DNA of 48,801 nt from Eggerthellales bacterium. GTDB lineage: Bacteria; Actinomycetota; Coriobacteriia; Coriobacteriales; Eggerthellaceae. Position numbers and translations under genes: made by a program. The stretch spans positions 1 to 48,801 of the forward strand of contig JAQXTF010000021.1 in the NCBI GenBank assembly GCA_029219345.1, in the 5' to 3' direction. This document shows, one piece after another, positions 32,388 through 45,440 of the stretch; position 1 is the stretch's first letter, and every line of letters starts with the position of its first letter. The notes under the pieces are model-generated. The model was not told where the DNA came from, made no database searches, and saw only the letters and a program-made list of their open reading frames with translations.

Positions 32388-33351
32388 ACCAGCCCAGGGC
32401 GGTGCGCTGGGTGGCGATGGCATCGGCCAGCTGTTGACGGCTTTCCGTAATGAACTCGAAGGTCAAATAGTCGGGGTTTACCCGCTCCACAATGCTTCGA
32501 ACTGCTGGCGTGGAGAAGGGTTTGTGCTGGTCAATGGCGAAAGCGTGGCTGAAGTTCTGGAACATGCGCTCCATGGGATCAAAGGAAAGCGCCGGCGGGT
32601 TGGCCATGATGCCCTTGGCGTATTCGCCCGTGACGGATTGTTGCAGATGCATGCCCCGCAAGGCATCCATCAAGCCGCAGCGTTCCAGGCCATCCAACAG
32701 CGTATGCAGGTAGGCAACGCCTTGTTCTTCCGTTTCGATATCCCAGTTGGTGTGGAAGGCGTGCCCCGTATCGAACATAAAGCCCTTGTTGGAATAGTTC
32801 ACCGCTTGCAGCAGGTCACGGGCAACTTCAGGCCGAAGGAAGTTCAAGCCCGGGTGCCACAGGTTTTCCATGAGCAGAGCCACTTCCCCATCTTCATCGG
32901 CGAAAACGGCGCTGAGAAGTTCGGCCAATGCTGCGCATACCTCTTCATCAGTGCGGTGAAACCTCAGAGAAAACGATTCATCAGACCACACGTCCGACGC
33001 ATGGAACACCGCATAGGCTGCCTGATATGTATGGGCATCTACCAGGTCTTTCTTGAATTTATCAACAATGCATTGCCTGTTCAGGCCACCGTAGTATTGT
33101 TCAGCCGCCTCAAGGAAGCCAAATTCGTGAATAAGGCCCTCTTCGCAGCCTTCCCACAGATCAATCCAAGTGTAGTAGGAGCTCATGTGCAGCCCCACCA
33201 CGTGGCGGGGCTCTACCAAGGTTTGGGAGCCATCGTCCAACACCATGAGCTCTACGCCGTCAAAGCCCTCCATGAACTGCTCGAAATCGGCCTGATCGGC
33301 AAAGCGGTTCAGATCATCATCGCAGGTGGTAAGGTTAAAGGAGGTCTTCAT
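32386..33351 (-). CDS. Xylose-isomerase-like TIM-barrel protein, last gene of the cob operon
   Basis: This 321-residue protein has the sugar-phosphate isomerase/AP-endonuclease-2 layout. Likely metal ligands are the Glu of LLMENLWHPG, the Asp and His of FMFDTGHAFHTN, the His of RGMHLQQS and the Glu of LTFEFI. The ATG at 33351 lies within the last codons of the cobC-like gene, so translation is coupled. Its place at the end of a B12 operon suggests work on a sugar or ribazole intermediate, but this is inference; no enzyme activity can be named. Confidence 0.8.
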   Translation of the reverse strand: MKTSFNLTTCDDDLNRFADQADFEQFMEGFDGVELMVLDDGSQTLVEPRHVVGLHMSSYYTWIDLWEGCEEGLIHEFGFLEAAEQYYGGLNRQCIVDKFKKDLVDAHTYQAAYAVFHASDVWSDESFSLRFHRTDEEVCAALAELLSAVFADEDGEVALLMENLWHPGLNFLRPEVARDLLQAVNYSNKGFMFDTGHAFHTNWDIETEEQGVAYLHTLLDGLERCGLMDALRGMHLQQSVTGEYAKGIMANPPALSFDPMERMFQNFSHAFAIDQHKPFSTPAVRSIVERVNPDYLTFEFITESRQQLADAIATQRTALGW

Positions 33352-33961
33352 TGCCAAAACCCCACTTATCTTTCGCCGTGATTTTACAGCAGTCTTCGAA
33401 CTCGAATCCCCCCAGCAAGGTGGGCTCAACCGTGGCGCAATAGCCTTCGCAGTTGTTCACATGCCAGCTGTAATAAGAGCCTTTTCCGCAGGTAAAAGTA
33501 TCCATGGCAGCCATAATGGTGCCTCCATGGGCCACCACAACAAGCTGACTCTCCCCCACCTCAAAGGCCTGCTTCAGCAGGGTGCGCAAGGCATTGGCAG
33601 TGCGCCGGCCAAAACCGTCTTTGCTTTCACCGTGAGGGCATGGGGTCTCGCAGTTGGCATCAACCCACGCCTGATAATCGGAATTGTCGGAAAGCTCCTG
33701 ATAGTTGAGGTTTTCGAAGTCGCCGAAGTCCATTTCCCGCAGGTCGTCCACCACAATCTGCTGGGCCTTGGGGAAAGCAATGGCCGCCGTCTGACGAGCA
33801 CGCAGCAAGGGGCTCACATACACACGCGCCACCCCCTCAACGGCGCCTATTGCACGGGCTGCATCTTCCCCAGCCTCGCTTAAGGGCTCGTCGGTGCGAC
33901 CGATGTAGCGTTTTTGCACGTTTCCCGGCGTTTGTCCGTGACGCAAAAGCACAATGCGCAT
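33335..33961 (-). CDS. cobC: CobC-like histidine phosphatase (predicted alpha-ribazole phosphatase)
   Basis: This 208-residue protein is of the phosphoglycerate-mutase fold, with the catalytic IVLLRHGQTPGN, the Arg/Glu pair in VSPLLRARQTA and REMDFGDFENL, and VVAHGGTI. In B12 salvage CobC removes phosphate from alpha-ribazole phosphate or adenosylcobalamin phosphate. The specific function is inferred from its position after cobT, cobU and cobS. ATG 33961 begins two bases after the previous stop; the longer frame to 34006 is rejected. Confidence 0.82.
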   Translation of the reverse strand: MRIVLLRHGQTPGNVQKRYIGRTDEPLSEAGEDAARAIGAVEGVARVYVSPLLRARQTAAIAFPKAQQIVVDDLREMDFGDFENLNYQELSDNSDYQAWVDANCETPCPHGESKDGFGRRTANALRTLLKQAFEVGESQLVVVAHGGTIMAAMDTFTCGKGSYYSWHVNNCEGYCATVEPTLLGGFEFEDCCKITAKDKWGFGNEDLL

Positions 33962-33963
33962 GG

Positions 33964-34341
33964 CTAGTTCGCCTTCGCGCCTTTGAGGACAACGGGAATA
34001 CCGCACACCATGCGCACCACACCTGCGGCCTCTTTGGCCAAAGCCGAAGAAAGGGAACCCGCGCGCTCACGGAACTGCCTGTCATCCCAGGTCAGAGGAA
34101 TAACGCCACTGCCAACTTCGGTGGAAGTCAGAGCTTCTTTGGCCAAGAGCAACTGAAGCACTTCATCGCTTATGGCCTTTTGACGCACCAGCTCTTCCAC
34201 ATGCAGCACCACTGCGGCATCTTCCAGCGATGCAGTGCTCGCTTCAGGTTCGCGGACGTCATAAACCGCAGCCTTATTCATGCCACAGCCTTCAAGGTAC
34301 GTCTTTTTGCCCGAGGCAATTCCGCCCGTTACCAAAATCAC
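33964..34341 (-). CDS. Short second CobU-like protein
   Basis: This 125-residue protein starts with a P-loop (MILVTGGIASGKKTYLE) and ends with the CobU-type segment TSTEVGSGVIPLTWDDRQFRERAGSLSSALA...GIPVVLKG. The middle of CobU, including the region of the guanylylated histidine, is missing. The full-length neighbour at 35123-35686 keeps the histidine region but has a changed TNEVG...P motif (TNDVGSDGMTYDP). The two may complement each other. The start overlaps the cobS stop by four bases (ATGA). Confidence 0.75.
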   Translation of the reverse strand: MILVTGGIASGKKTYLEGCGMNKAAVYDVREPEASTASLEDAAVVLHVEELVRQKAISDEVLQLLLAKEALTSTEVGSGVIPLTWDDRQFRERAGSLSSALAKEAAGVVRMVCGIPVVLKGAKAN

Positions 34342-35123
34342 AGCAACATCACCTTCTGAAGAATCACCAGGGTAATCAAGAAAGCCAGCTCAAGGGTTTG
34401 CAGCAAAAAGCCGGCAAGATCGCCGCTCCAGCCGCCAAATTCCTTGCGAGCCATATGAATGATGTACAGCGTCACCGCGGCAGCAACCACTAAAAGGGCA
34501 GCCGCAGCGGCAAGGGAAAAGTAAGCCACTCCGCCCAGCGCGGCAATGAAAATCACTGCCACCAACACCATGGCAGGCTTCTTATCTGCGGAAATCTGGA
34601 AAGAGGCCAGCATGCCCTGGTCGGTGCTACGGGCAACACCCAGCACGCAGAAGCTGCTCATGCAGCGAGAAATCACAAAAGTCAGAGCGAACACCAGCAC
34701 CCCTTCCGGCGTCAGCGCCAGTTCAGAGGCCACCGCCACCGACAGAATCAAGTAGCTCGCAATGCAAATGGGAGCAAAGGCGCCCACGTGGGGGTCCTTC
34801 AGAATCTCGCGCTTGCGCTCAGGAGCCGCATGGCTGGACAAGGCATCCACCACGTCGCAGAAGCCATCCAGATGAATGGCGCCGCTAATGCCTGCGGGAA
34901 TGAGCACCAGGCCCGCACCCGCCAGCAGGGGTCCCAAAGAAGCCGCACCGCACAACAGCGACCACAGCCACACAAACAGGCCAATGACCACGCCAATAAA
35001 GGGGAAGCCGGCCATCATGAAGCGCATGTTCTCAGGGGTCCACTCCACCTGAGGTGCGGGCACGCGGGAAAAGCAGGTGAACGCCATAGCCACCGAGCAG
35101 AAAAACGCTTTCAAGGTTTTCAT
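34338..35123 (-). CDS. cobS: Adenosylcobinamide-GDP ribazoletransferase (cobalamin synthase)
   Basis: CobS joins adenosylcobinamide-GDP and alpha-ribazole (phosphate) at the membrane in the final assembly step. The 261-residue protein has several membrane segments and the family signature GAIHLDGFCDVVDALSSHA plus FGGWSGDLAGFLLQ near the end. ATG 35123 overlaps the cobU stop (TAATG); an in-frame GTG at 35132 is the alternative start. Confidence 0.94.
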   Translation of the reverse strand: MKTLKAFFCSVAMAFTCFSRVPAPQVEWTPENMRFMMAGFPFIGVVIGLFVWLWSLLCGAASLGPLLAGAGLVLIPAGISGAIHLDGFCDVVDALSSHAAPERKREILKDPHVGAFAPICIASYLILSVAVASELALTPEGVLVFALTFVISRCMSSFCVLGVARSTDQGMLASFQISADKKPAMVLVAVIFIAALGGVAYFSLAAAAALLVVAAAVTLYIIHMARKEFGGWSGDLAGFLLQTLELAFLITLVILQKVMLL

Positions 35124-35686
35124 TACGCGCACACCTCCTTCGTTTCATCCATCCAATCAAGGCTGCCCTTCACCACGAGGGGGCTGCCGCACGCCATATC
35201 GATTACCACGTCGCTCATGGCCGCTACTTGGCAGTTTGCCGTACCCAACATGCGTACATAGGCAGCAGTGGATGGGTCATAGGTCATGCCATCGGAACCC
35301 ACATCATTGGTAATCATAATCAGGTTCTCGCAACGCGCACTCAGCGTCTTGACGCCTTCCATAACCGCAGAAAACACCAGGTCATGAGGGCGTTCATTGC
35401 CTTCGTCGTCGTAGAGCTCGTCGGCCATCAGGTTGGTGATGCATTCCAGCAGCACCACCGAATGAGGGTCATCCAGCTCAACGCCAGCCAAATTGCCGTA
35501 GCACTCGATGGTCTCAAAATGCTTACCCGCGCGCATAGCGCGATGCTTGGCAACCTTGGCCTCACCATCTTTGCCCCAGGGGCGCATGGTGGCAATGTAG
35601 TAGCGCTTGCCGGGAAACTGGGCCACTAGCTGTTCAGCCAGGTAACTCTTGCCGCAAGCAGCGCCGCCGGTAATCAAGATCATCAT
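35123..35686 (-). CDS. cobU: Adenosylcobinamide kinase/guanylyltransferase
   Basis: CobU phosphorylates adenosylcobinamide and then makes adenosylcobinamide-GDP. The 187-residue protein has the P-loop ILITGGAACGKSYLAE, YYIATMRP, a KHRAMR segment in which the His aligns with the guanylylated His of known CobU, LLECITNLMADEL, and VVKG at the end. The usual TNEVG.G.VP motif is changed to TNDVGSDGM. It overlaps cobT by four bases (ATGA). Confidence 0.92.
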   Translation of the reverse strand: MMILITGGAACGKSYLAEQLVAQFPGKRYYIATMRPWGKDGEAKVAKHRAMRAGKHFETIECYGNLAGVELDDPHSVVLLECITNLMADELYDDEGNERPHDLVFSAVMEGVKTLSARCENLIMITNDVGSDGMTYDPSTAAYVRMLGTANCQVAAMSDVVIDMACGSPLVVKGSLDWMDETKEVCA

Positions 35687-36780
35687 TGGGGAGCAACCTC
35701 AACGTCGTATTGCTCCACGCCAATCTGATCAAAGGACAGGCCGTTGTACACCATCAGCGCCATATCAATCAGGGGAAGCAGGCACGCGGCACCCGTGCCC
35801 TCGCCCAAGCGCAGGTCGGCGAAGATGATGGGGCGCACGCCCAGCTCATCCAGAATGGCTGCGGCAGCGGGCTCAAAGGACGAATGGGAAGCCAGCATTG
35901 CGCAACGGCTAGCAGGGCAAATGCGTGCAGCCACCAGCGCTGCAATGGCGCTGATCAGGCCGTCAATCACCACAGGAACGCGGAACAGCGCGCCGCCAAT
36001 GAAAGCGCCTGCCATGGCAGCAATGTCGAAACCGCCCACTTTGGCCAGGCAATCCAGCGCATCGTTGGGGTCGGGCTCGTTCAGGGCAATTGCGCGCTTG
36101 ATGGCATCAATCTTGCGCACAAGGCCCTCATCGGAAAGGCCAGAGCCGCGGCCCGTCACTTCCTCAACCTGCTTGCCCAGAAGCACCGTAGCCAAAGCGC
36201 TGGAGCTGGTGGTGTTGCCAATGCCCATTTCGCCCGAAAGAACAATATCGTAGCCCTCCATGGACAGAGCGTACACGCGCTCAATGCCCACCGCCAAGGC
36301 CTGACAGGCCTGCTCATGGCTCATTGCAGGGCCCTTGGTAAAGTTATTGGTACCGCGAGCAATCTTGCGGTTCAGCACGCCCTCGGCGTCATACACCATG
36401 CCCACGTCAACAGGATGGCACACCACACCGGCCAGCTTGCCCATAACGCACACCGACGACACCTGCTTGGCCATATTGGCAGCAACGATGGAGGTCACAT
36501 CGGGGCCCGACTGAGAAACGCCCTCTTCCACCACACCATTATCGGCGCAGAAAGGCAGCGCCGCGCGCTTGCCAATTTTAACTTGAGCAGTGCCCGTGAG
36601 GCCTGCAATCTGAATAACCAAATCTTCCAAAACGCCCAGACTGCCCACGGGCTTTCCCACGCTATTCCAGTGGTCCAAAGCCTCTTTCTTGGCAGCCTCG
36701 TCAAGGGGAGCAATGACAGAATTCACTGATGCGAAATCGCCTGCTTTTGCCCACTGTTCAATTTGTTCATAGGAAGTCAT
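35683..36780 (-). CDS. cobT: Nicotinate-nucleotide--dimethylbenzimidazole phosphoribosyltransferase
   Basis: CobT activates the lower-ligand base to alpha-ribazole phosphate. The 365-residue protein shows GKPVGSLGVLEDL, FCADNGVVEEGVSQS, EMGIGNTTSSSAL, TGRGSGLSDEG and RLGEGTGAACLLPL, the last holding the catalytic glutamate. Its start overlaps the stop of the beta-propeller gene (TAATG), so surface capture and ligand assembly genes are co-translated. Confidence 0.96.
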   Translation of the reverse strand: MTSYEQIEQWAKAGDFASVNSVIAPLDEAAKKEALDHWNSVGKPVGSLGVLEDLVIQIAGLTGTAQVKIGKRAALPFCADNGVVEEGVSQSGPDVTSIVAANMAKQVSSVCVMGKLAGVVCHPVDVGMVYDAEGVLNRKIARGTNNFTKGPAMSHEQACQALAVGIERVYALSMEGYDIVLSGEMGIGNTTSSSALATVLLGKQVEEVTGRGSGLSDEGLVRKIDAIKRAIALNEPDPNDALDCLAKVGGFDIAAMAGAFIGGALFRVPVVIDGLISAIAALVAARICPASRCAMLASHSSFEPAAAAILDELGVRPIIFADLRLGEGTGAACLLPLIDMALMVYNGLSFDQIGVEQYDVEVAPQ

Positions 36781-39700
36781 TATTTAGCTTCTTTCTCTTC
36801 GTCCTCGTTCTTGGAACTGGCCACCAACATGCGACCTGCTCCACCAAACACAAACAAACACGCAGCTGCAATAATAACCCAAATAAGCGGCGAACGCTCC
36901 TCCCCACTTTCGCCAGCAGCACCATTCTTCGGGGCGCTGCCCAACGAAGCGGTATAAATCACCTCTTCGGGCCCTTCCTCGGAATCGTTTGCGTTAGTAG
37001 CAACCTTGGTATCATTTTCCAAAGCCTTGGTTTCGCCTCCTGCGCTGGGATTCTTCTTCTGCTCCTCAGCAGCAACCAAGGCGTCATAGTTCTTGCGCGC
37101 CCTTTGCAGTGCGGCCAGCGTATCAGGAGGAACCATAGCGTACTGCACAGACGTCAGGGCGGCCAGCGCCTTTTCTGCAGCCTCAATAGCAGGGCCGCTT
37201 TCCAGGGTGATAACGCCCAGATCATTCACCATGGCAGCTACAGCATCAACAGCCGCCTTCCCTTCCTGCAGCTCATTGAAAGAAGCACGAGCGCCGACCA
37301 AGATGTCCAGGGTGCCAGGAGAAACCTTCGCCAGCTGAGCCTCGGTCAATCCATCGCGAGCGGCCTCAGCGGCGGCAATGGCCGGCCCGCTTTCCAGGGT
37401 TACCTTGCCAATGGAGGCAACTTGCGTCACAAACGCGTCAACGGCAGCCTTGTCGGCCACCAACTGGTCATAGGTCTCGCGAGCGGCCGTAAGGGTCGCA
37501 ATGGCCTCATCGGAAACAAGGGAGCGCTGGCGATCGGTCAGCTTGGCAAGAGCCTCTTTCGCCGCTGCAATGGCATCTCCGCTTTCCAGCGTAATGTCGC
37601 CCAGAGCAGCAACGCGAGCTTCAAAAGCCTCAGCCACTACCTTATCGGCCAGCAATTGCGCATATTGCGCCTGAGCCTCATGGTAGGAAGCGATAACCGA
37701 TTCGGGCACCTTTTCCATCTGGAGCACATTCAGGGCATCCAGCATTTCTTGCACGTGCTGGATGGCAGGGCCGCTTTCCAGAGTCACCGGGAACAGTTTA
37801 GCTACGGCCTGAATAACGGCCTTCACCTGCTTATCGTTAACCAGCAAAGCCTGGTATTCGTTTTCGGCGCGAACAAGATCCGCCATGGTTCCATCAGGCA
37901 CATAAGCGCGCTGGGAGGGAGTCAGGGCATCTGCCATAGCGCGGGCCGCAATGATGGCGTTACCGCTCTCTTCGGTTACAGGGAACAGGTTGGCAACCGC
38001 CTCAATGAACTGCTGGGCGGCCTCGTAGTCACCCCTCAGGGCATCGTATTGAGCCTGAGCCTCATCTAGACGGTCAAAAGCCTGCTGGCTCACTAGCTCA
38101 CGCACTCCGGCAGAAAGTGACGCAGCTCGGCTCTGAACCGCCGCCAGAGCATCGCCGCTTTCCAGGGTTATAGGAAACAGGTCTTCAACGGCCTGCTCAA
38201 AAGCTTCAGCATGACGTTGGTTGGCAGCAGTACGGCCCTCCTCCGTGAAGCCCACGGCAAAGATGACACCAGAGTCGTTCTTCATGTACATGACGCCGCC
38301 GGAAGTAGCAATGACGCTGGCGATGTTGTACTGGGGGCCAGCAGCAGCGTCATAGAGCTCAACCAGCTCAATGTCTTCGTCGCCAGCACAATCGTTTTTC
38401 ACCTTGGCCAGGGAAATGCCGCCCGGGTTGTTGTTATAGGTGAAGTAGAAGCACAAATAGCCGCTTTCTTCCGTGGCGGTGCTCAGCAGAGGCGATGCCT
38501 TCACGTCGCCCAAAGCCTGCACGGATGCGATGGTCTGTAGGCTGGAGGCATCAGCTACCACAAAGCGGCAGAAGGAGCCGCCGTCATAACCTGCGCCAAT
38601 GCCGAAGTACAGGCGGCCTTTGTAGTACACCGGGGTGCTGGTGCTCATGGCGCCGCTCCACACATTGCGCGATTGCAAGCCGCTCAAAGAGCCTGAGCCA
38701 GCGTTGAAGTAAGCGGAGCAAAGGTAGCCCGCCTTGGTAGTGAAGTAAATCTGACCCGTTTCGGGGGCGTAACAAATGGCTGAGCGCTGATCGCCCATGC
38801 CGCCCAGGGAAAGAGTGCTGACCACGTCACCGGTGTACTTGTTCACGCAGCGCAGGGTGGAAGATGCATTGGAGCCTTCGCTGACGCCGTCATCGCCGCC
38901 AAACACCAGGTAATTGCCTACAGCCAGGCCACCAGCCCAGTAATAGCCGCCAGCGTTGGTGATGGACCAAGTAGCCTCTTTCAGCTCATCGCCCTTGGTG
39001 CGGTCTTCATCCTCAGCCTTGATGCACACGTAGTTGGCATCCTTCTTCTCGCTATTCCAAAAGCCGGTGTACACATAGCCGTCGGAATACACCACGGGAG
39101 AAACCGACTGACCCTTCAGAGGGTCCTTGTAGATCCACAGGGACTCAAGGGAAGTGGCATCAAAGGCCTGAATGGTGCCCGTGGAAAGGGACACGAAAAT
39201 CTTGCCCTCGCCGTAGGCAAAGGGGGTATACCCCCAGTTGAAAGCAATGCTCAAATCGCCCTCGGCAACAATGGCGCCAGTATAAAGATCTGCCTTGTAA
39301 ATCTTCATGCCACTCATGAATACCAGGCGATTGTCAACGATGAGCTGGGTGGACACTGCGTTATTCCAGCCCGATCCCAGCCTCAGGGCATACAACAGCT
39401 GGGCCTCATCTGCGGCCGCAGGAAGATCGTAATGCACGATGCCGTTGTTGTAGCTGTTACCGCGGAAGCTGGGCCACTCCGCCCACACATCCTGGGTCAG
39501 GGGCACGAGCTCTTCCTCTTCGGGCTCTTCAGCAGGTTCCGGGGCATCCTTGGCAGGCTCCTTGTCGCCTTGAGGCGCAACGGTATCCTGGGGCTCAGCC
39601 GCCGGGTTTTCCGCTGCAGGCTCTTGCACAACGGGAGCCATATCGGCAGGCTGAGTTGCTACCGGTTCATCAGCAGAAGGTGCAGCGGCCTGCTCATTTG

Positions 39701-39791
39701 CCAGCGCGCCCGTGGGTAAAAAGCCCAAGGTCAGCGTTGCCGCAAGAGCAATACTGACCAGCTTGGTTGTTATTTCCTTAAGGAGTTTCAT
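36780..39791 (-). CDS. Surface-anchored PQQ-type beta-propeller on a six-repeat helical stalk
   Basis: From ATG 39791 the protein has 1003 residues. A signal peptide (KLVSIALAATLTLGFLPTGALA) is followed by an acidic Pro/Ala linker to about residue 100. Residues of about 105-510 form a PQQ-like beta-propeller (WPSFRGNSYNNG, AFDATSLESLWIY, STLRCVNKYTGDVVSTL, SSTPVYYKGRLYF-like blades). Then come six alpha-helical repeats of about 64 residues, each with (I/V)T.ESG(D/P/N)AI..A...A..LT..Q...V (about 535-920), and one C-terminal membrane segment (SPLIWVIIAAACLFVFGG) with a charged tail. It is therefore an extracellular head on a stalk. The start overlaps the stop of the DUF4430 gene by one base. 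A role in corrinoid binding is inferred from the operon. Confidence 0.85.
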   Translation of the reverse strand: MKLLKEITTKLVSIALAATLTLGFLPTGALANEQAAAPSADEPVATQPADMAPVVQEPAAENPAAEPQDTVAPQGDKEPAKDAPEPAEEPEEEELVPLTQDVWAEWPSFRGNSYNNGIVHYDLPAAADEAQLLYALRLGSGWNNAVSTQLIVDNRLVFMSGMKIYKADLYTGAIVAEGDLSIAFNWGYTPFAYGEGKIFVSLSTGTIQAFDATSLESLWIYKDPLKGQSVSPVVYSDGYVYTGFWNSEKKDANYVCIKAEDEDRTKGDELKEATWSITNAGGYYWAGGLAVGNYLVFGGDDGVSEGSNASSTLRCVNKYTGDVVSTLSLGGMGDQRSAICYAPETGQIYFTTKAGYLCSAYFNAGSGSLSGLQSRNVWSGAMSTSTPVYYKGRLYFGIGAGYDGGSFCRFVVADASSLQTIASVQALGDVKASPLLSTATEESGYLCFYFTYNNNPGGISLAKVKNDCAGDEDIELVELYDAAAGPQYNIASVIATSGGVMYMKNDSGVIFAVGFTEEGRTAANQRHAEAFEQAVEDLFPITLESGDALAAVQSRAASLSAGVRELVSQQAFDRLDEAQAQYDALRGDYEAAQQFIEAVANLFPVTEESGNAIIAARAMADALTPSQRAYVPDGTMADLVRAENEYQALLVNDKQVKAVIQAVAKLFPVTLESGPAIQHVQEMLDALNVLQMEKVPESVIASYHEAQAQYAQLLADKVVAEAFEARVAALGDITLESGDAIAAAKEALAKLTDRQRSLVSDEAIATLTAARETYDQLVADKAAVDAFVTQVASIGKVTLESGPAIAAAEAARDGLTEAQLAKVSPGTLDILVGARASFNELQEGKAAVDAVAAMVNDLGVITLESGPAIEAAEKALAALTSVQYAMVPPDTLAALQRARKNYDALVAAEEQKKNPSAGGETKALENDTKVATNANDSEEGPEEVIYTASLGSAPKNGAAGESGEERSPLIWVIIAAACLFVFGGAGRMLVASSKNEDEEKEAK

Positions 39792-41002
39792 TACTGCATG
39801 CCACCTCCCACATCGGCGCCCAGGCCCTTGCAGGTGTAGCACCACACAATGACATCGCCGTCGCTGAGCTCGTACTTGGAGCAACCGTAGTTGGGGAACC
39901 AGCCGTTAACCTTGTACATCCAACCAGACTCTTCGCCGCAGTCGAACTCGTATAGGTTGTTGATGCCCTCAATGTAGTTGGAGCCGTACAGAGCAGAGAA
40001 GGTGTATTCCATCTGAATTTCTGCGGCGCGGCAAGCGGCAACCAGCACCTCAAACACGGTGTCGCCCTCGTTGAAGGCCACCGTGGAGGTTGCCAGAATA
40101 GTGCCATTGGCGGGCACATTGCCTTCCTTGCCGGGGGTCAGGTCGGCCATATTATTCAGAATGGTGTCGCAGCGAATCTCAATGGTGCAGGTAGGCTGCT
40201 TGGTGCCGGAGTTACCACCAGTAGAGCTGCCGGAAGAATAGCCTGGGTTCACTGCCTGCTGCTGGGCCGCAGCGTGCTGAGCTGCGCGATCATCGGCAAT
40301 CTTGGTAAGCTCATCGGCGGAGAGCACGCAAGCTGCACCAGCCGCAATGAAAGACTTCGCCGCGGCGATGCTATCGTTAGACAGGGAGTTTTCGGAGAAC
40401 TCCCCAACGGTTGCCGCCCATGCGCCATCCTTCTTCAGCAGCGAAATGGCGCTGCCTGCATCTGCCTTGGCATTTACGCCCGAAAGGCTCACAGAGCCGT
40501 TGAGCACAGTCACCGTGGCACTGCCGTCTTCCTGGGAAAGCAGCAGTAGAGCATCATCGGAAGGAGTTGCGGCAACCGAATTGTCGCACAGCGACAAACC
40601 CAGAGGCATCTTTGCCCAGGCCAGAGCCGTGCCGCCTTTCAAGGAAGCGGTATACTTGCCACCCTCGTCGCCCAAGACAACCGTGGAGCGAGCACCCATG
40701 CGTAGGCCCGTCACGCCATCCTGAGTCAGTGCGATAGAAGATTTAGTCAAGGTTTCCAGCTGGTCGCCCGGCTGCAGAAGATCATCGTTATCAAGGGCGT
40801 AGCCCAGGCCGGCGCGTACGATGTTGGCGTTGCCCGATTTCTCGGTGGTTGTCAGCGCGGGCATTTCGTAGCCCGATGCAGTATCACTGGAGCTACCTCC
40901 CTTGAAGTTATTCACTGCCATAACGCCCCCAATCACAATCACGATGGCTGCAACCACCATGATCAGGTTAAACGCGCGTTTCTTTGCTTTTACGTTCGCC
41001 AT
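39791..41002 (-). CDS. Membrane-anchored DUF4430 (transcobalamin-like) protein with FecR-like region
   Basis: This 403-residue protein has an uncleaved N-terminal anchor (11-30), a beta-rich FecR-like region (about 60-200), a Ser/Gly linker (about 250-268) and a C-terminal DUF4430 domain (about 271-396). That domain is related to the beta-domain of animal transcobalamin and intrinsic factor; the signature here is DTVFEVLVAACR, CGEESGWMYKVNGWFPN and LSDGDVIVWCYTC. It lies between ECF transporter and cob genes, which strongly supports an extracellular corrinoid-binding role; binding itself is not shown. Confidence 0.85.
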   Translation of the reverse strand: MANVKAKKRAFNLIMVVAAIVIVIGGVMAVNNFKGGSSSDTASGYEMPALTTTEKSGNANIVRAGLGYALDNDDLLQPGDQLETLTKSSIALTQDGVTGLRMGARSTVVLGDEGGKYTASLKGGTALAWAKMPLGLSLCDNSVAATPSDDALLLLSQEDGSATVTVLNGSVSLSGVNAKADAGSAISLLKKDGAWAATVGEFSENSLSNDSIAAAKSFIAAGAACVLSADELTKIADDRAAQHAAAQQQAVNPGYSSGSSTGGNSGTKQPTCTIEIRCDTILNNMADLTPGKEGNVPANGTILATSTVAFNEGDTVFEVLVAACRAAEIQMEYTFSALYGSNYIEGINNLYEFDCGEESGWMYKVNGWFPNYGCSKYELSDGDVIVWCYTCKGLGADVGGGMQ

Positions 41003-41037: not shown

Positions 41038-41955
41038 CTATTCCGTAAACATGCCCTGGGGAGCTTCCGCAGGCTCAACATGAGAAATCTGCTTCTTAAA
41101 ATGCCACTCCCCCGTTATCTGCAAAACACAGGGAAGCAGGCAAAACACCAGATAGGCGCCGTAAAACACGAAGCTCAGCGGCGTCATGCGGTTGAAGATA
41201 ACCTGGGGGTTATACTGAATTGCCGTCTGGGTAAGCAGCATGCCGGCAATGCAGATGGTGATAAGCACCACCATGGTGATAACCAGGCTGCGATCGCGAG
41301 CGTCAAAGCGATACAGCGAATAGGCGGTACGGCCGCGCAGCAAAGAACCGCGGCTGCGCATGGAGTCGGACATCTCCGCAAAGCGCTCGATGCTCCAGGA
41401 GACGATGATGGACACGCGGCGCACCCAGTTGTGAGCACGATCAAGCAAGTTGCCGCATCCCGACCCGCGTCCGATAGCCTTCTGAGCAGTGTCAATGCGG
41501 TGGGTACGGTCAGCCACCATGGGAATGGCACGCAGAGCCACGGCCAGCATCAGCGACAGGCGGGGCGACACCCTCCCCAGCAAATACACCACTTTATCGG
41601 CGGTGAACAGCTTAAACACGCAGGTCATCCACAGGCATGCGGTGGAAATTTGCGCGCCCTGTACAAAACCATAAGCCAGGGACTCCAAAGTAATGCGGTT
41701 GCCAATGATGGTTTCGCCCAAATTGGTGATGCCAAAGTGGGTGTTGTAGGCAAACCAGGCGCTCCATGCAAAGGGGAACACCAGTGCCACCAGGGCAAAC
41801 AGCACAGCCTTACGGCCCTTCAGCGCAAATGAGTATATCAGGGCGCACACAAACCCCACCCCCACGAAAACAGGGTGGTTCCATGCCAACGCAGCAGCAA
41901 TAACCGCCACGAAGAACAAGAGATTGAGGCCCGGATGATACGAATCAAAGCGCAC
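41038..41955 (-). CDS. ECF transporter T component (second)
   Basis: EcfT couples ATPase motion to the substrate-binding subunit. The 305-residue protein has about six hydrophobic segments and coupling-helix motifs such as DSMRSRGS and the AxG-like TAQKAIGRG. The start codon appears to be GTG at 41953-41955. It is the second T protein in the operon, which is unusual; the two may form one heteromeric module. Confidence 0.85.
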   Translation of the reverse strand: MRFDSYHPGLNLLFFVAVIAAALAWNHPVFVGVGFVCALIYSFALKGRKAVLFALVALVFPFAWSAWFAYNTHFGITNLGETIIGNRITLESLAYGFVQGAQISTACLWMTCVFKLFTADKVVYLLGRVSPRLSLMLAVALRAIPMVADRTHRIDTAQKAIGRGSGCGNLLDRAHNWVRRVSIIVSWSIERFAEMSDSMRSRGSLLRGRTAYSLYRFDARDRSLVITMVVLITICIAGMLLTQTAIQYNPQVIFNRMTPLSFVFYGAYLVFCLLPCVLQITGEWHFKKQISHVEPAEAPQGMFTE

Positions 41956-41966
41956 GATAGACCGCC

Positions 41967-42695
41967 CTACTCGCCCATTCCGTACTTCACCTTGACGCGC
42001 TCCAGCTTGTCAAGCAGCGGATTGGTGGCAAAGAACAGCAACAGCGCCGTTGCAACAGCGCGGGTGAAATTCACCGGCACGCCCGAGGCAAAGATGGCCA
42101 GCACGCTCTCAACGGTGTAGTCGTTGGCCATAAGGAACAGGGCGCATACGTCCAGCAGCGGGCCAATAACGCACCAGGTGAAGAAGAAGCCGCCCACCGT
42201 CAGCAGGAGCACCTGCTTTTTGGTGTAATCCTTGTGAGGGATGAGGTTCTTCTGGGAAAGAATGCCAAACACCAGACCCGCCAGGCCAAAGGCCAGCATC
42301 TGCCAAGGAGTCCAGGGGCCCTGACCGAAGAGGAAGTTGCTCAGCAGCATGGACATGGCGCCGGTCATGAAGCCCGCCTGGGGGCCAAAGGCGATGCCTG
42401 CAATGATGATCACGGCAGCGATGGGCTTGAAATCGGGGAACCAGAAGAAGGCTGCGCGAGACACAATGGCCAGCGCGATAACCACAGCAAGAACAACCAG
42501 GTCACGGGCTTGGGGCTTGCGGCTTTCAAAGGTGGCGAAGAAGGGCACCGTGGTAAGCACCGCAATAGCCACGCTCACCAGGTAGTAGTTCTCAACGCCT
42601 AGAAGCACCGTAGAAGCCAGGGCGGCAAGAGCAAGAGCGATGCAGGCCACCGTGATGGCGAGCACCTTGGGGCTGGTTTTTACGCGTTCTTGCAT
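41967..42695 (-). CDS. ECF transporter S component (predicted cobalamin/cobinamide binding)
   Basis: This is a 242-residue membrane protein with about seven hydrophobic segments. The pattern PDFKPIAAVIIIAGIAFGPQAGFMTGAMSMLLSNFLFGQGPWTPWQMLAFGLAGLVFG is typical of the ECF S family often found beside DUF4430 proteins. The substrate is inferred to be a corrinoid from the riboswitch-like leader and cob genes. It overlaps the ATPase gene by 16 bases. Confidence 0.85.
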   Translation of the reverse strand: MQERVKTSPKVLAITVACIALALAALASTVLLGVENYYLVSVAIAVLTTVPFFATFESRKPQARDLVVLAVVIALAIVSRAAFFWFPDFKPIAAVIIIAGIAFGPQAGFMTGAMSMLLSNFLFGQGPWTPWQMLAFGLAGLVFGILSQKNLIPHKDYTKKQVLLLTVGGFFFTWCVIGPLLDVCALFLMANDYTVESVLAIFASGVPVNFTRAVATALLLFFATNPLLDKLERVKVKYGMGE

Positions 42696-44377
42696 AATGC
42701 GATCACATCTTCATCAACAATTGCGTTTTCAAACAGGTGGCGGCTCATGCGATTTGCGCTGGTGGTGTAGAAGCTGTTCTGCGCAAAGAACCTGCGCGGC
42801 GTATTAGTGGTCACCACGCCGCCATCAAAGAACATGGACACGCTGGTAGCGTAATGGGCGCAGAACTCAATGTCATGAGACACCATGACGATGGTCATGC
42901 CCTTCTCGCGCAGGCGCGCCAGCACGCCAGCCAGCTCGCGCTTGAAGAAGCCGTCGATGCCCTTGGTGGGCTCATCCAGCAGCAGAATTTCGGGGTCGCA
43001 CAAAAGCACCTTGGCCAGAGCAGCGCGTTGCTGCTCGCCGCCAGAAAGATCGAAGGAGTGCGAGTCCAGCAGCCGCTCCACATCGCAGGTGCGAGCCACT
43101 TCCAGCACCTTTTCCTGCACTTGCTCGGGGGTGAGGCCCTTGCTGTCAATCATTTCTTCCAGGTCGGCGCGGACGGTCTTCTTCACAAACAGATTTTGGG
43201 GGTCTTGGGGCAACATGGCAATGCAGCCGCGGAACAGCTCTGAATTCTTCCAGTCCTTCAGCTTCTTTCCCTTAATCTTTATGGTGCCGCGGTAAGGCTT
43301 GGTCACGCCGCAAGCGCACTTCAAAGTGGTGGATTTGCCGGTTCCGTTGCCGCCCACCAGGGCAAACAGCTCGCCCTTATGCACGTCAAAGCTAGTGCCG
43401 CGCAGAATATCGGGCAGCTCGCGCTCATAGCGGAACCATACATCCTTAAAAGAAAGAACGATGTTGTCGTCGGTTTCCTCATATTCGGCGGCATCGGGCA
43501 AGGAGCGCTTGTCCTGGGGAATGTCGCTGAAGTTCTGCGTCAGCCAGGTGCGGCCCTCGCGCACGGTCAGGGGGCAATCGGCGGCGGCCACCTGAGAGGC
43601 AGCAGCGCCCGAATTCACACCGTAGAAGATGCGCATGGGAGCAGGCAGTGCGGCAGCCATTTCGTCGCCGGCCGTGATGAGCTTCTGGCCCACTTCGTGA
43701 GGCTCGCCATCAGCCAAAATGCGGCCCTGCTTCATCACCAGCACGCGATCGGCGGCGCTGAAGGTCTCTTCCAGGCGATGCTCAGACAAGATGATGGTGG
43801 TGCCCAACTCAAGATTGATTTTGCGCACCGTATTTAGGAAATCAGTAGCGGCAATGGGGTCCAACTGGCTGGTAGGTTCGTCCAAAATGAGCACACTGGG
43901 CTGCATAGCCATGATGGAGGCCAAATTCAACAACTGCTTCTGACCGCCGGACAAGTCTTTTACATCCTTATGAAACCAGCCCTGAATGCCAAAGTAGCTG
44001 GCCATCTCGGCTACGCGCAAGCGCATGGTACGCTGATCGCAGCCCATGCTCTCCAGGCCAAAGGCCAGCTCATGCCATACCTTGTCGGTAACCACCTGAG
44101 CATCAGGGTTCTGCATCACGTAGCCAATCTTGGCACTCTGTTCACGCTGAGACACCTGGTCCAGAGGCACGTCCTCAAACAGAATCTGGCCGGTACGGGT
44201 TCCATGGGGAGTGAGCACCGTCTTCAGGTGACGCAGCAACGTTGTCTTTCCGCAGCCGCTCTTGCCACACAGCATCACGTAACTGCCGGCCTCAATCTCA
44301 AAGGACACCTTATCCAGCGCGGGGTGGTCACACTTGGGATAGCTAAACGTTACATTCTGGAAAGCGAACTGCGCCAT
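42680..44377 (-). CDS. ECF transporter double ATPase (EcfA1-EcfA2 fusion)
   Basis: This 565-residue protein holds two ABC domains in one chain. Domain 1: Walker A GKSGCGKTT (38-46), signature LSGGQKQ (142-148), Walker B SVLILDEPTS (161-170). Domain 2: Walker A GGNGTGKSTT (342-351), signature LSGGEQQR (444-451), Walker B EILLLDEPTKG (463-473). His switches are at SEH (198-200) and VSHD (499-502). It energises the ECF module. The start has AAGGAG and overlaps the T1 gene by 28 bases. Confidence 0.95.
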   Translation of the reverse strand: MAQFAFQNVTFSYPKCDHPALDKVSFEIEAGSYVMLCGKSGCGKTTLLRHLKTVLTPHGTRTGQILFEDVPLDQVSQREQSAKIGYVMQNPDAQVVTDKVWHELAFGLESMGCDQRTMRLRVAEMASYFGIQGWFHKDVKDLSGGQKQLLNLASIMAMQPSVLILDEPTSQLDPIAATDFLNTVRKINLELGTTIILSEHRLEETFSAADRVLVMKQGRILADGEPHEVGQKLITAGDEMAAALPAPMRIFYGVNSGAAASQVAAADCPLTVREGRTWLTQNFSDIPQDKRSLPDAAEYEETDDNIVLSFKDVWFRYERELPDILRGTSFDVHKGELFALVGGNGTGKSTTLKCACGVTKPYRGTIKIKGKKLKDWKNSELFRGCIAMLPQDPQNLFVKKTVRADLEEMIDSKGLTPEQVQEKVLEVARTCDVERLLDSHSFDLSGGEQQRAALAKVLLCDPEILLLDEPTKGIDGFFKRELAGVLARLREKGMTIVMVSHDIEFCAHYATSVSMFFDGGVVTTNTPRRFFAQNSFYTTSANRMSRHLFENAIVDEDVIALCKNA

Positions 44378-45243
44378 AGCACAATCTCCTTCACGTTAAT
44401 CATGGTAGGCAAAACCAAAAGCGTACAATAAGCGCATAGAGAGCAAGTGAACAACGGGGTAACGGGGGCCGCCACAATGGTGGGATAAAACTCAATCTCC
44501 TGCACGCCCATAGCGGCGCCGGCAATGGACAAGGCGGCAAACACGCCCATGGCCGCCAACAGCAGCTTGTCGCGATTGCCAAAGTGGTAGATGGAGAAAT
44601 TGGAGCGTTTGCCCACACCATAGCCGCGGCTTTTCATGGAATCAGCAGTTTGCACTGCGTTCTCGAAAGCCCAGGTGGTCAGCTGAGACAGCAGATCAGC
44701 GCCATGGGCCGCCTTTTCAGAAGTGGTTCCCACTTGAATGGATTTTCCCAAGCTGGCACGGCAGTGACCAAACTGGGAAAGCTTGTTCAGATAGGTGGGC
44801 ACCAGGCGCAAAGCCATGGTAAGGGTCAGGGTAATAGCCGGTGCCAGGCCGCCAAAGAGATACGTGAATTTATCGCTGGTCATTACGCGGTTGTAAGAAG
44901 AAAACCAAATGAACATGGCCACGAACATGCAGCCCGTGCAGGCGCCATAAGCCAGCGCTTCCAAAGAGTATACACGACCACCGAAATAGGTGAACAGCAC
45001 TGTCTTGCCCAGGGAATTAAACAAAGGGTTTATGCAGGTGACCAGCAAGAATACGGGCACCATAGCCAACGCAAACTTGCAAGCGCGCACGCCCTGAACG
45101 GATACTGCATATAGGAAAGAAAACAGCAGGGTGGCAGCCGTAAAGGCCGGGTGACGGAAGAACATGCAAAAGAGAATGGCCAGCGCAAAAAAGGCGAAAG
45201 TTACCGCCGGATGAAAATCCGAAAAAGCGTCTTGCTCTTTCAT
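44350..45243 (-). CDS. ECF transporter T component (first), operon-leading gene
   Basis: From ATG 45243, preceded by GGGAGGGG, the protein has 297 residues with about six hydrophobic segments and the T-type coupling motifs (CRASLGKS and DSMKSRGYG). The open frame runs back to 45384, but the extra 47 codons lie in the riboswitch-like leader, so the shorter start is preferred. Confidence 0.88.
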   Translation of the reverse strand: MKEQDAFSDFHPAVTFAFFALAILFCMFFRHPAFTAATLLFSFLYAVSVQGVRACKFALAMVPVFLLVTCINPLFNSLGKTVLFTYFGGRVYSLEALAYGACTGCMFVAMFIWFSSYNRVMTSDKFTYLFGGLAPAITLTLTMALRLVPTYLNKLSQFGHCRASLGKSIQVGTTSEKAAHGADLLSQLTTWAFENAVQTADSMKSRGYGVGKRSNFSIYHFGNRDKLLLAAMGVFAALSIAGAAMGVQEIEFYPTIVAAPVTPLFTCSLCAYCTLLVLPTMINVKEIVLWRSSLSRM

Positions 45244-45299: not shown

Positions 45300-45440
45300 G
45301 TGCACGAGACCCCAGTAAAGGCAGGATGCTCGCCTGTGCTCCATGATCCGGCTTATCCCCTTCCTTTGCAGCAAAGGGCTTCACGGTGACCTACTCGCGG
45401 GGAATTTCACCCCATTCAATGGACTGCAATCAACGCAGCT
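45300..45440 (-). promoter_or_regulatory. Cobalamin-riboswitch-like leader
   Basis: On the minus strand the leader contains GGTGAAATTCC (45401-45411), then TCACCGTGA (45381-45389) where cobalamin riboswitches have CCACTGTGA-type sequence, a hairpin, then AAGCCGGAT (45345-45353) resembling the AGCCAGGA segment, and the paired AGGCGAGCATCCTGCC (45319-45334). The order and spacing fit an adenosylcobalamin aptamer with an atypical B12-box, upstream of a cob operon. No clear terminator follows, so control may be on translation through the GGGAGGGG site. Fit was judged by eye only. Confidence 0.6.

Follow-up and report, generated by a model that had tools for sequence, protein, structure and literature searches.

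Animal transcobalamin, haptocorrin, and intrinsic factor have a C-terminal beta-domain of the DUF4430 family, and TCN proteins carry DUF4430 at their C-terminus (PMC4350170). In Bacteroides, BtuG is a surface beta-propeller next to a B12 importer and is believed to catch the ligand ahead of its import (PMC10404256, PMC6143338); the propeller of BtuG2 is seven-bladed (PMC10404256). CbrT, an experimentally proven B12 transporter, binds cobalamin (Cbl) and cobinamide (Cbi) with nanomolar affinity and transports both; an E. coli strain without btuF, btuC, and metE was used in that work (PMC5997447). For lactobacilli, one study lists an "Additional lipoprotein component of putative cobalamin ECF transporter" as one entry and a DUF4430 protein encoded near rtpR as another (PMC9963975); it mentions neither a propeller nor a toroid as partner.

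The window, the whole stretch of 48,801 nucleotides analyzed here, is from a 1.94 Mb draft genome of the family Eggerthellaceae (Coriobacteriia, Actinomycetota), the sole representative of its genus among the genomes compared. In one operon, a DUF4430 gene and a beta-propeller gene are flanked by CbrT-like ECF genes on one side and cobT-cobU-cobS-cobC on the other. The DUF4430 domain is of the same family as the beta-domain of the animal carriers, and relatives add a toroid, as transcobalamin does. In the window, however, a membrane anchor carries the domain, which is partnered with a propeller on a separate polypeptide. The locus resembles that of BtuG in having a predicted surface-exposed beta-propeller beside genes of a putative B12 importer. 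But BtuG has seven blades and is partnered with the TonB-dependent BtuB, whereas the window propeller is of the BamB/PQQ type with ∼8 predicted blades, and its partners are DUF4430 and an ECF transporter. BamB itself, the best fold match, belongs to a Gram-negative outer-membrane assembly machine, whereas the window propeller is a predicted Gram-positive surface protein encoded in a B12 operon.

Organization of the operon

The genes form a minus-strand row from ∼45243 to 33335, with few or no gaps (table 1). From 5′ to 3′, they encode an EcfT, a fused EcfA-EcfA′, an S component, another EcfT, the DUF4430 protein, the propeller protein, CobT, CobU, CobS, a CobU-like open reading frame, and a CobC-like protein. 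An earlier note on this DNA placed a gene for a membrane-anchored DUF4430 protein directly before one for a stalked beta-propeller. This is borne out, and the pair fills positions 36780–41002 exactly. The TAA stop of the DUF4430 gene shares one base with the ATG of the propeller gene (TAATG at 39791), and the stop of the propeller gene meets the start of cobT in the same way (TAATG). An open reading frame listed from a TTG (36780–39884) was rejected because it reaches upstream of the real gene, which starts at the ATG at 39791.

Table 1. Features of the operon and of the two paired proteins in the window
Feature	Coordinates	Strand	Evidence
Motif resembling cobalamin riboswitch core, operon 5′ leader (candidate)	45381..45411	-	Pattern match and alignment
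EcfT transmembrane subunit (second copy; type present in relatives)	44350..45243	-	
Fused ECF ATPases EcfA-EcfA′	42680..44377	-	Two ABC domains; TIGR04520 and TIGR04521 above cut-off
ECF substrate-specific S component, CbrT-like	41967..42695	-	6FNP: single sequence E = 2.7e-5, family profile E = 1.1e-16
EcfT transmembrane subunit (first copy)	41038..41955	-	Pfam CbiQ E = 3.2e-9
Membrane-anchored DUF4430 protein, 403 aa	39791..41002	-	Pfam PF14478 E = 1.9e-21, residues 313-390; N-terminal membrane helix
DUF4430 domain (transcobalamin C-domain-like)	39833..40066	-	Pfam; profile comparison with transcobalamins
Secreted beta-propeller surface protein, 1003 aa	36780..39791	-	ORF, hydropathy, predicted model, BamB-type fold
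Beta-propeller domain, ∼residues 100-530, ∼8 blades	38202..39494	-	Profile match E = 3.5e-92; AlphaFold2 model
Stalk, ∼six 64-residue repeats, motif TLESGxAI	37017..38198	-	Read directly from sequence
C-terminal transmembrane helix (near residues 966-990) and charged tail, without LPXTG motif	36822..36896	-	Hydropathy
cobT (DMB phosphoribosyltransferase)	35683..36780	-	TIGR03160 above cut-off; PF02277 E = 1.4e-116
cobU	35123..35686	-	PF02283 E = 1.6e-32
cobS	34338..35132	-	PF02654 E = 7.2e-41
Shortened second CobU-like ORF	33964..34341	-	PF02283 match to positions 116-167 of 168 only (C-terminal part)
cobC-like alpha-ribazole phosphatase (histidine phosphatase)	33335..34006	-	PF00300 E = 3.1e-35; TIGR03162 E = 9e-32, below its cut-off

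The transporter genes have the make-up of ECF-CbrT: a CbrT-like S component together with EcfA, EcfA′, and EcfT. When 32 S components from loci of relatives were combined into a profile and compared with the PDB, CbrT of Lactobacillus delbrueckii (6FNP) matched at E = 1.1e-16 and the next structure at 5e-4; the ECF ATPase and EcfT partners are also present. CbrT as characterized, however, has no extracellular capture pair, whereas the window operon adds the pair, two EcfT genes, and cobTUSC. Cobalt uptake was rejected as a function of the transporter because no S component of the CbiM type is present. The two EcfT genes differ in type, and relatives have only the type found at 44350–45243. This gene probably starts at ATG 45243, following AGGGAGGGG, rather than at GTG 45384.

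CbiD and CbiK are likewise encoded in the source genome, as is a BtuF-like gene next to a cobalamin riboswitch. Given CbiD and CbiK, the organism may build its own corrin ring and have less need of uptake, and corrinoid synthesis may occur alongside salvage. Cobalamin riboswitches are present elsewhere in this genome (G000:C106 and G000:C31), one located 5′ of cbiK with the BtuF-like gene divergent from it and the other 5′ of an open reading frame that has no Pfam match.

Domains of the paired proteins

The DUF4430 domain of the window scores 76.7 bits against PF14478, relative to a curated cut-off of 23.8, which places it in the family, and a whole-genome search found a single copy in the source genome. 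A membrane helix spans ∼residues 9–30 at the N-terminus of the protein, so its domain is predicted to face outward on a linker. Searched against the PDB as a single sequence, the domain gave chance matches only, and profiles were needed. For a profile of 40 propeller-fused DUF4430 domains, the top PDB matches were Transcobalamin-2 (E = 0.03) and Transcobalamin-1 (E = 0.09), and transcobalamins account for five of the seven best. Each of these E-values is weak; the consistency across matches is what argues, at the level of sequence, for kinship between DUF4430 and transcobalamin. The middle of the protein (window 40275–40830, ∼residues 60–245) resembles an FecR-type beta domain by eye, with no Pfam match, and relatives carry a disordered linker at this location.

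The propeller protein consists of a signal sequence, the propeller, a repeat stalk, and a C-terminal membrane anchor, and has no DUF4430 domain of its own. It is the only propeller of this family in the source genome. As a single sequence, the propeller had no match in the PDB and a weak one in Pfam (PQQ_2, E = 0.006, below cut-off). The family profile, in contrast to the single sequence, matched BamB (E ∼1e-17) and also quinoprotein dehydrogenases. The predicted model of the window domain (pLDDT 88.4, pTM 0.88) likewise has BamB as its closest fold in Foldseek (E = 9e-18). The strand pattern of predicted models, together with the eight-bladed BamB as best match, suggests ∼8 blades. A PQQ-type propeller on a helical stalk had been proposed from the letters of the DNA. 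Its propeller type agrees with the profile and fold matches and the stalk with ∼six repeats, but these repeats are only probably helical, as helix prediction spans just the first residues of the stalk. The comparison with BtuG had been offered as analogy and not homology. This is the correct term, because BtuG structures are absent from the 58 sequence matches of the propeller profile and from the top 50 fold matches.

Linkage, control, and exchange in relatives

When 84,980 species genomes were searched with a profile, 100 relatives were confirmed, of which 80 loci, from Coriobacteriia and some Clostridia, were compared here. The search pattern would miss divergent members, such as that of the window, and the number of relatives is therefore a lower bound. 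The two genes keep together across these loci, as the pairing proposed in the earlier note would predict. The propeller is fused to a DUF4430 domain in 69 of 80 loci. In 71 of the 74 loci that could be tested, the gene immediately downstream of that of the propeller encodes a separate DUF4430 protein; none follows in L147 and L155 (Clostridia) or in L100 (Atopobium). In fusions, the linker from the last DUF4430 to the propeller is short and near-constant, at ∼23–39 residues in 53 of the 57 measured. One such natural fusion is that of Cuneatibacter (L160, residues 90–596). A model of a fused propeller-DUF4430 protein reached a pTM of 0.82, but the propeller dominates the chain, so this value is no proof of a fixed arrangement of the two domains. 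In alignment A4, the invariant residues are Tyr193, Trp194, Asn414, and Asp415. In several clostridial loci (L124, L127, L132, and L135), a propeller gene is accompanied by a single DUF4430 that is separate from it, indicating that the propeller is kept even where it is unfused. A complete ECF set is located just downstream in 32 of 69 loci, and ECF genes are missing from most Collinsella loci.

Several loci have individual features. In Collinsella (L091, L094, L097, L101, and others), a unit of two genes, propeller and DUF4430, is preceded by a riboswitch and has no ECF genes in its vicinity. A clostridial DUF4430-propeller protein (L140:9425-11329) has a dockerin type I domain at its end (Pfam E = 2.5e-13) and may thus attach to a cellulosome-like scaffold. 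In L155, the propeller gene is preceded by phage capsid and baseplate genes, and the row of genes in L140 is similar; prophage insertion or carriage is possible at both. Candidatus Aphodovivens avistercoris has two different propeller-DUF4430 loci (L108 and L119), ∼26 kb apart on one contig.

Loci of relatives are frequently associated with control by cobalamin. Rfam models identified AdoCbl-II or AdoCbl riboswitches before propeller genes in many loci, with matches at gathering level. We also built a cobalamin-riboswitch covariance model from nine examples found with Rfam. In 1.49 Mb of related loci, it gave 52 strong matches, 50 of which are within 700 bases of a propeller-gene start, a coincidence that is partly by construction because a few of those loci fed the model. 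Homologues are thus not mostly outside B12 loci, an outcome that the earlier note had named as counting against its proposal. Of 75 loci, 48 have a cobalamin riboswitch immediately before the propeller gene, including Collinsella loci without nearby ECF genes, and toroid loci of relatives likewise carry cobalamin riboswitches. In the window, Rfam scans were negative at every setting. A motif resembling the riboswitch core lies at the expected place in the leader of the operon (45381–45411) and is followed by a sequence like a B12 box, but the pattern was written after the sequence had been seen, and two covariance models of our own scored the motif low, at 5–9 bits. Neither confirms it, and we therefore claim no riboswitch in the window.

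In some relatives, the position of the propeller is taken by a DUF4430 with an alpha/alpha toroid or by a stand-alone toroid, a point that was missed by the earlier note. The toroid family has squalene-hopene cyclase as its best match and matches Transcobalamin-1 weakly (E = 0.07). Across 119 Eggerthellaceae genomes, the propeller is present in 36 and the toroid in 33, and both occur together in one genome versus ∼10 expected. The associated p-value of 1.4e-5 ignores relatedness and is too small, because related genomes are not independent. The source genome has no toroid match, and the partner of its DUF4430 is the propeller. Exchange is clearest between a locus of Eggerthella sinensis with a propeller (L102) and that of a congener with a toroid (L082). 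Both flanks are 84–86% identical, and the only segments that differ are L102:6487-12751, with propeller and DUF4430, and L082:6816-10130, with toroid and DUF4430. The DUF4430 closest to that of the window (47%) is in L069, where a stand-alone toroid and a separate DUF4430 reproduce the split layout of the window. The toroid, the other half of transcobalamin, would do the job of the propeller in relatives, so the propeller probably replaces that half without being related to it.

A putative extracellular capture pair for corrinoids

We consider it likely that the pair captures corrinoids (vitamin B12, cobinamide, or another cobamide) outside the cell, as the part of an uptake system that feeds the ECF transporter. 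The proposal of a Gram-positive surface B12 pair gains support at the level of genomes from folds or families, gene linkage, domain fusion, riboswitches in relatives, the exchange with the toroid, and the CbrT-like S component. That each domain binds a ligand, which corrinoid this is, and in what order it is handed over are inferences. In the proposed mechanism, the propeller, raised on its stalk, would take up a corrinoid. The membrane-tethered DUF4430, which corresponds to the beta domain with which transcobalamin contacts cobalamin, would close over the corrinoid or receive it. It would then be passed on to the CbrT-like S component, the presumed point of membrane entry, and be driven through the membrane by the ECF ATPases. 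CobT, CobU, CobS, and CobC could subsequently attach or exchange the lower ligand.

Other functions are less probable to differing degrees. DUF4430 could be the only part to contact the corrinoid, with the propeller acting as a scaffold or docking domain, like BamB in the BAM complex. The closest folds are indeed those of BamB, whose binding partners are proteins rather than small ligands, and the link to transcobalamin belongs to the DUF4430 part. We nevertheless regard such a division of labor as unlikely, because the toroid with which the propeller is swapped in place is the half of transcobalamin that holds the ligand, pointing to an equivalent role, and because the propeller is retained unfused in the clostridial loci described above. 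Reading the propeller as an enzyme, either PQQ-dependent or modifying corrinoids, draws on the quinoprotein dehydrogenases among its matches, but is extremely improbable given that it has ∼390 residues versus ∼570 in those enzymes and that propellers of the BamB type score higher.

The ligand might instead be another substance linked to B12, such as a lower-ligand base, alpha-ribazole, or cobalt. The presence of cobT, cobU, and cobS in the operon and the apparent ability of the genome to make a corrin ring are compatible with this. However, the S component is CbrT-like and not CbiM-like, relatives without adjoining cob genes have riboswitches of the adenosylcobalamin type directly before the gene, and two transcobalamin-like modules are implausible for a small base or ion, making such a ligand quite improbable. 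We also judge it very improbable that the pair binds a B12-carrying protein of the host or of bacteria, or is an adhesin, rather than binding the free vitamin. Large multidomain surface proteins, stalk repeats, and the dockerin of one relative would fit that function, but the fixed coupling to DUF4430 and the riboswitch control in many relatives are at odds with it.

Under the preferred interpretation of corrinoid capture, the simplest view is that propeller and toroid are two unrelated solutions to the same task, holding a corrinoid beneath a cap formed by DUF4430. We lean toward a broader generalization, that DUF4430 is a common cap for either of two unrelated ligand-holding folds, a toroid or a BamB-type propeller, swapped at the same locus in Coriobacteriia, and that a Gram-positive surface B12 receptor evolved independently of BtuG. 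The transporter and the link between DUF4430 and transcobalamin are of known kinds. The pairing of propeller with DUF4430 and its exchange with the toroid are new as far as the searched literature shows; no description of the pair was found in the open-access literature, subscription journals having been outside the search.

Extracellular retention of B12 by Gram-positive gut bacteria is poorly known, and structures of the Bacteroides surface binders BtuG and BtuH have been solved. The pair is a widespread candidate for such retention, found in Eggerthella, Slackia, Gordonibacter, Collinsella, Olsenella, and others. It would link the B12 carriers of animals to bacterial uptake, and it provides a natural swap of domains between close species that is directly testable.
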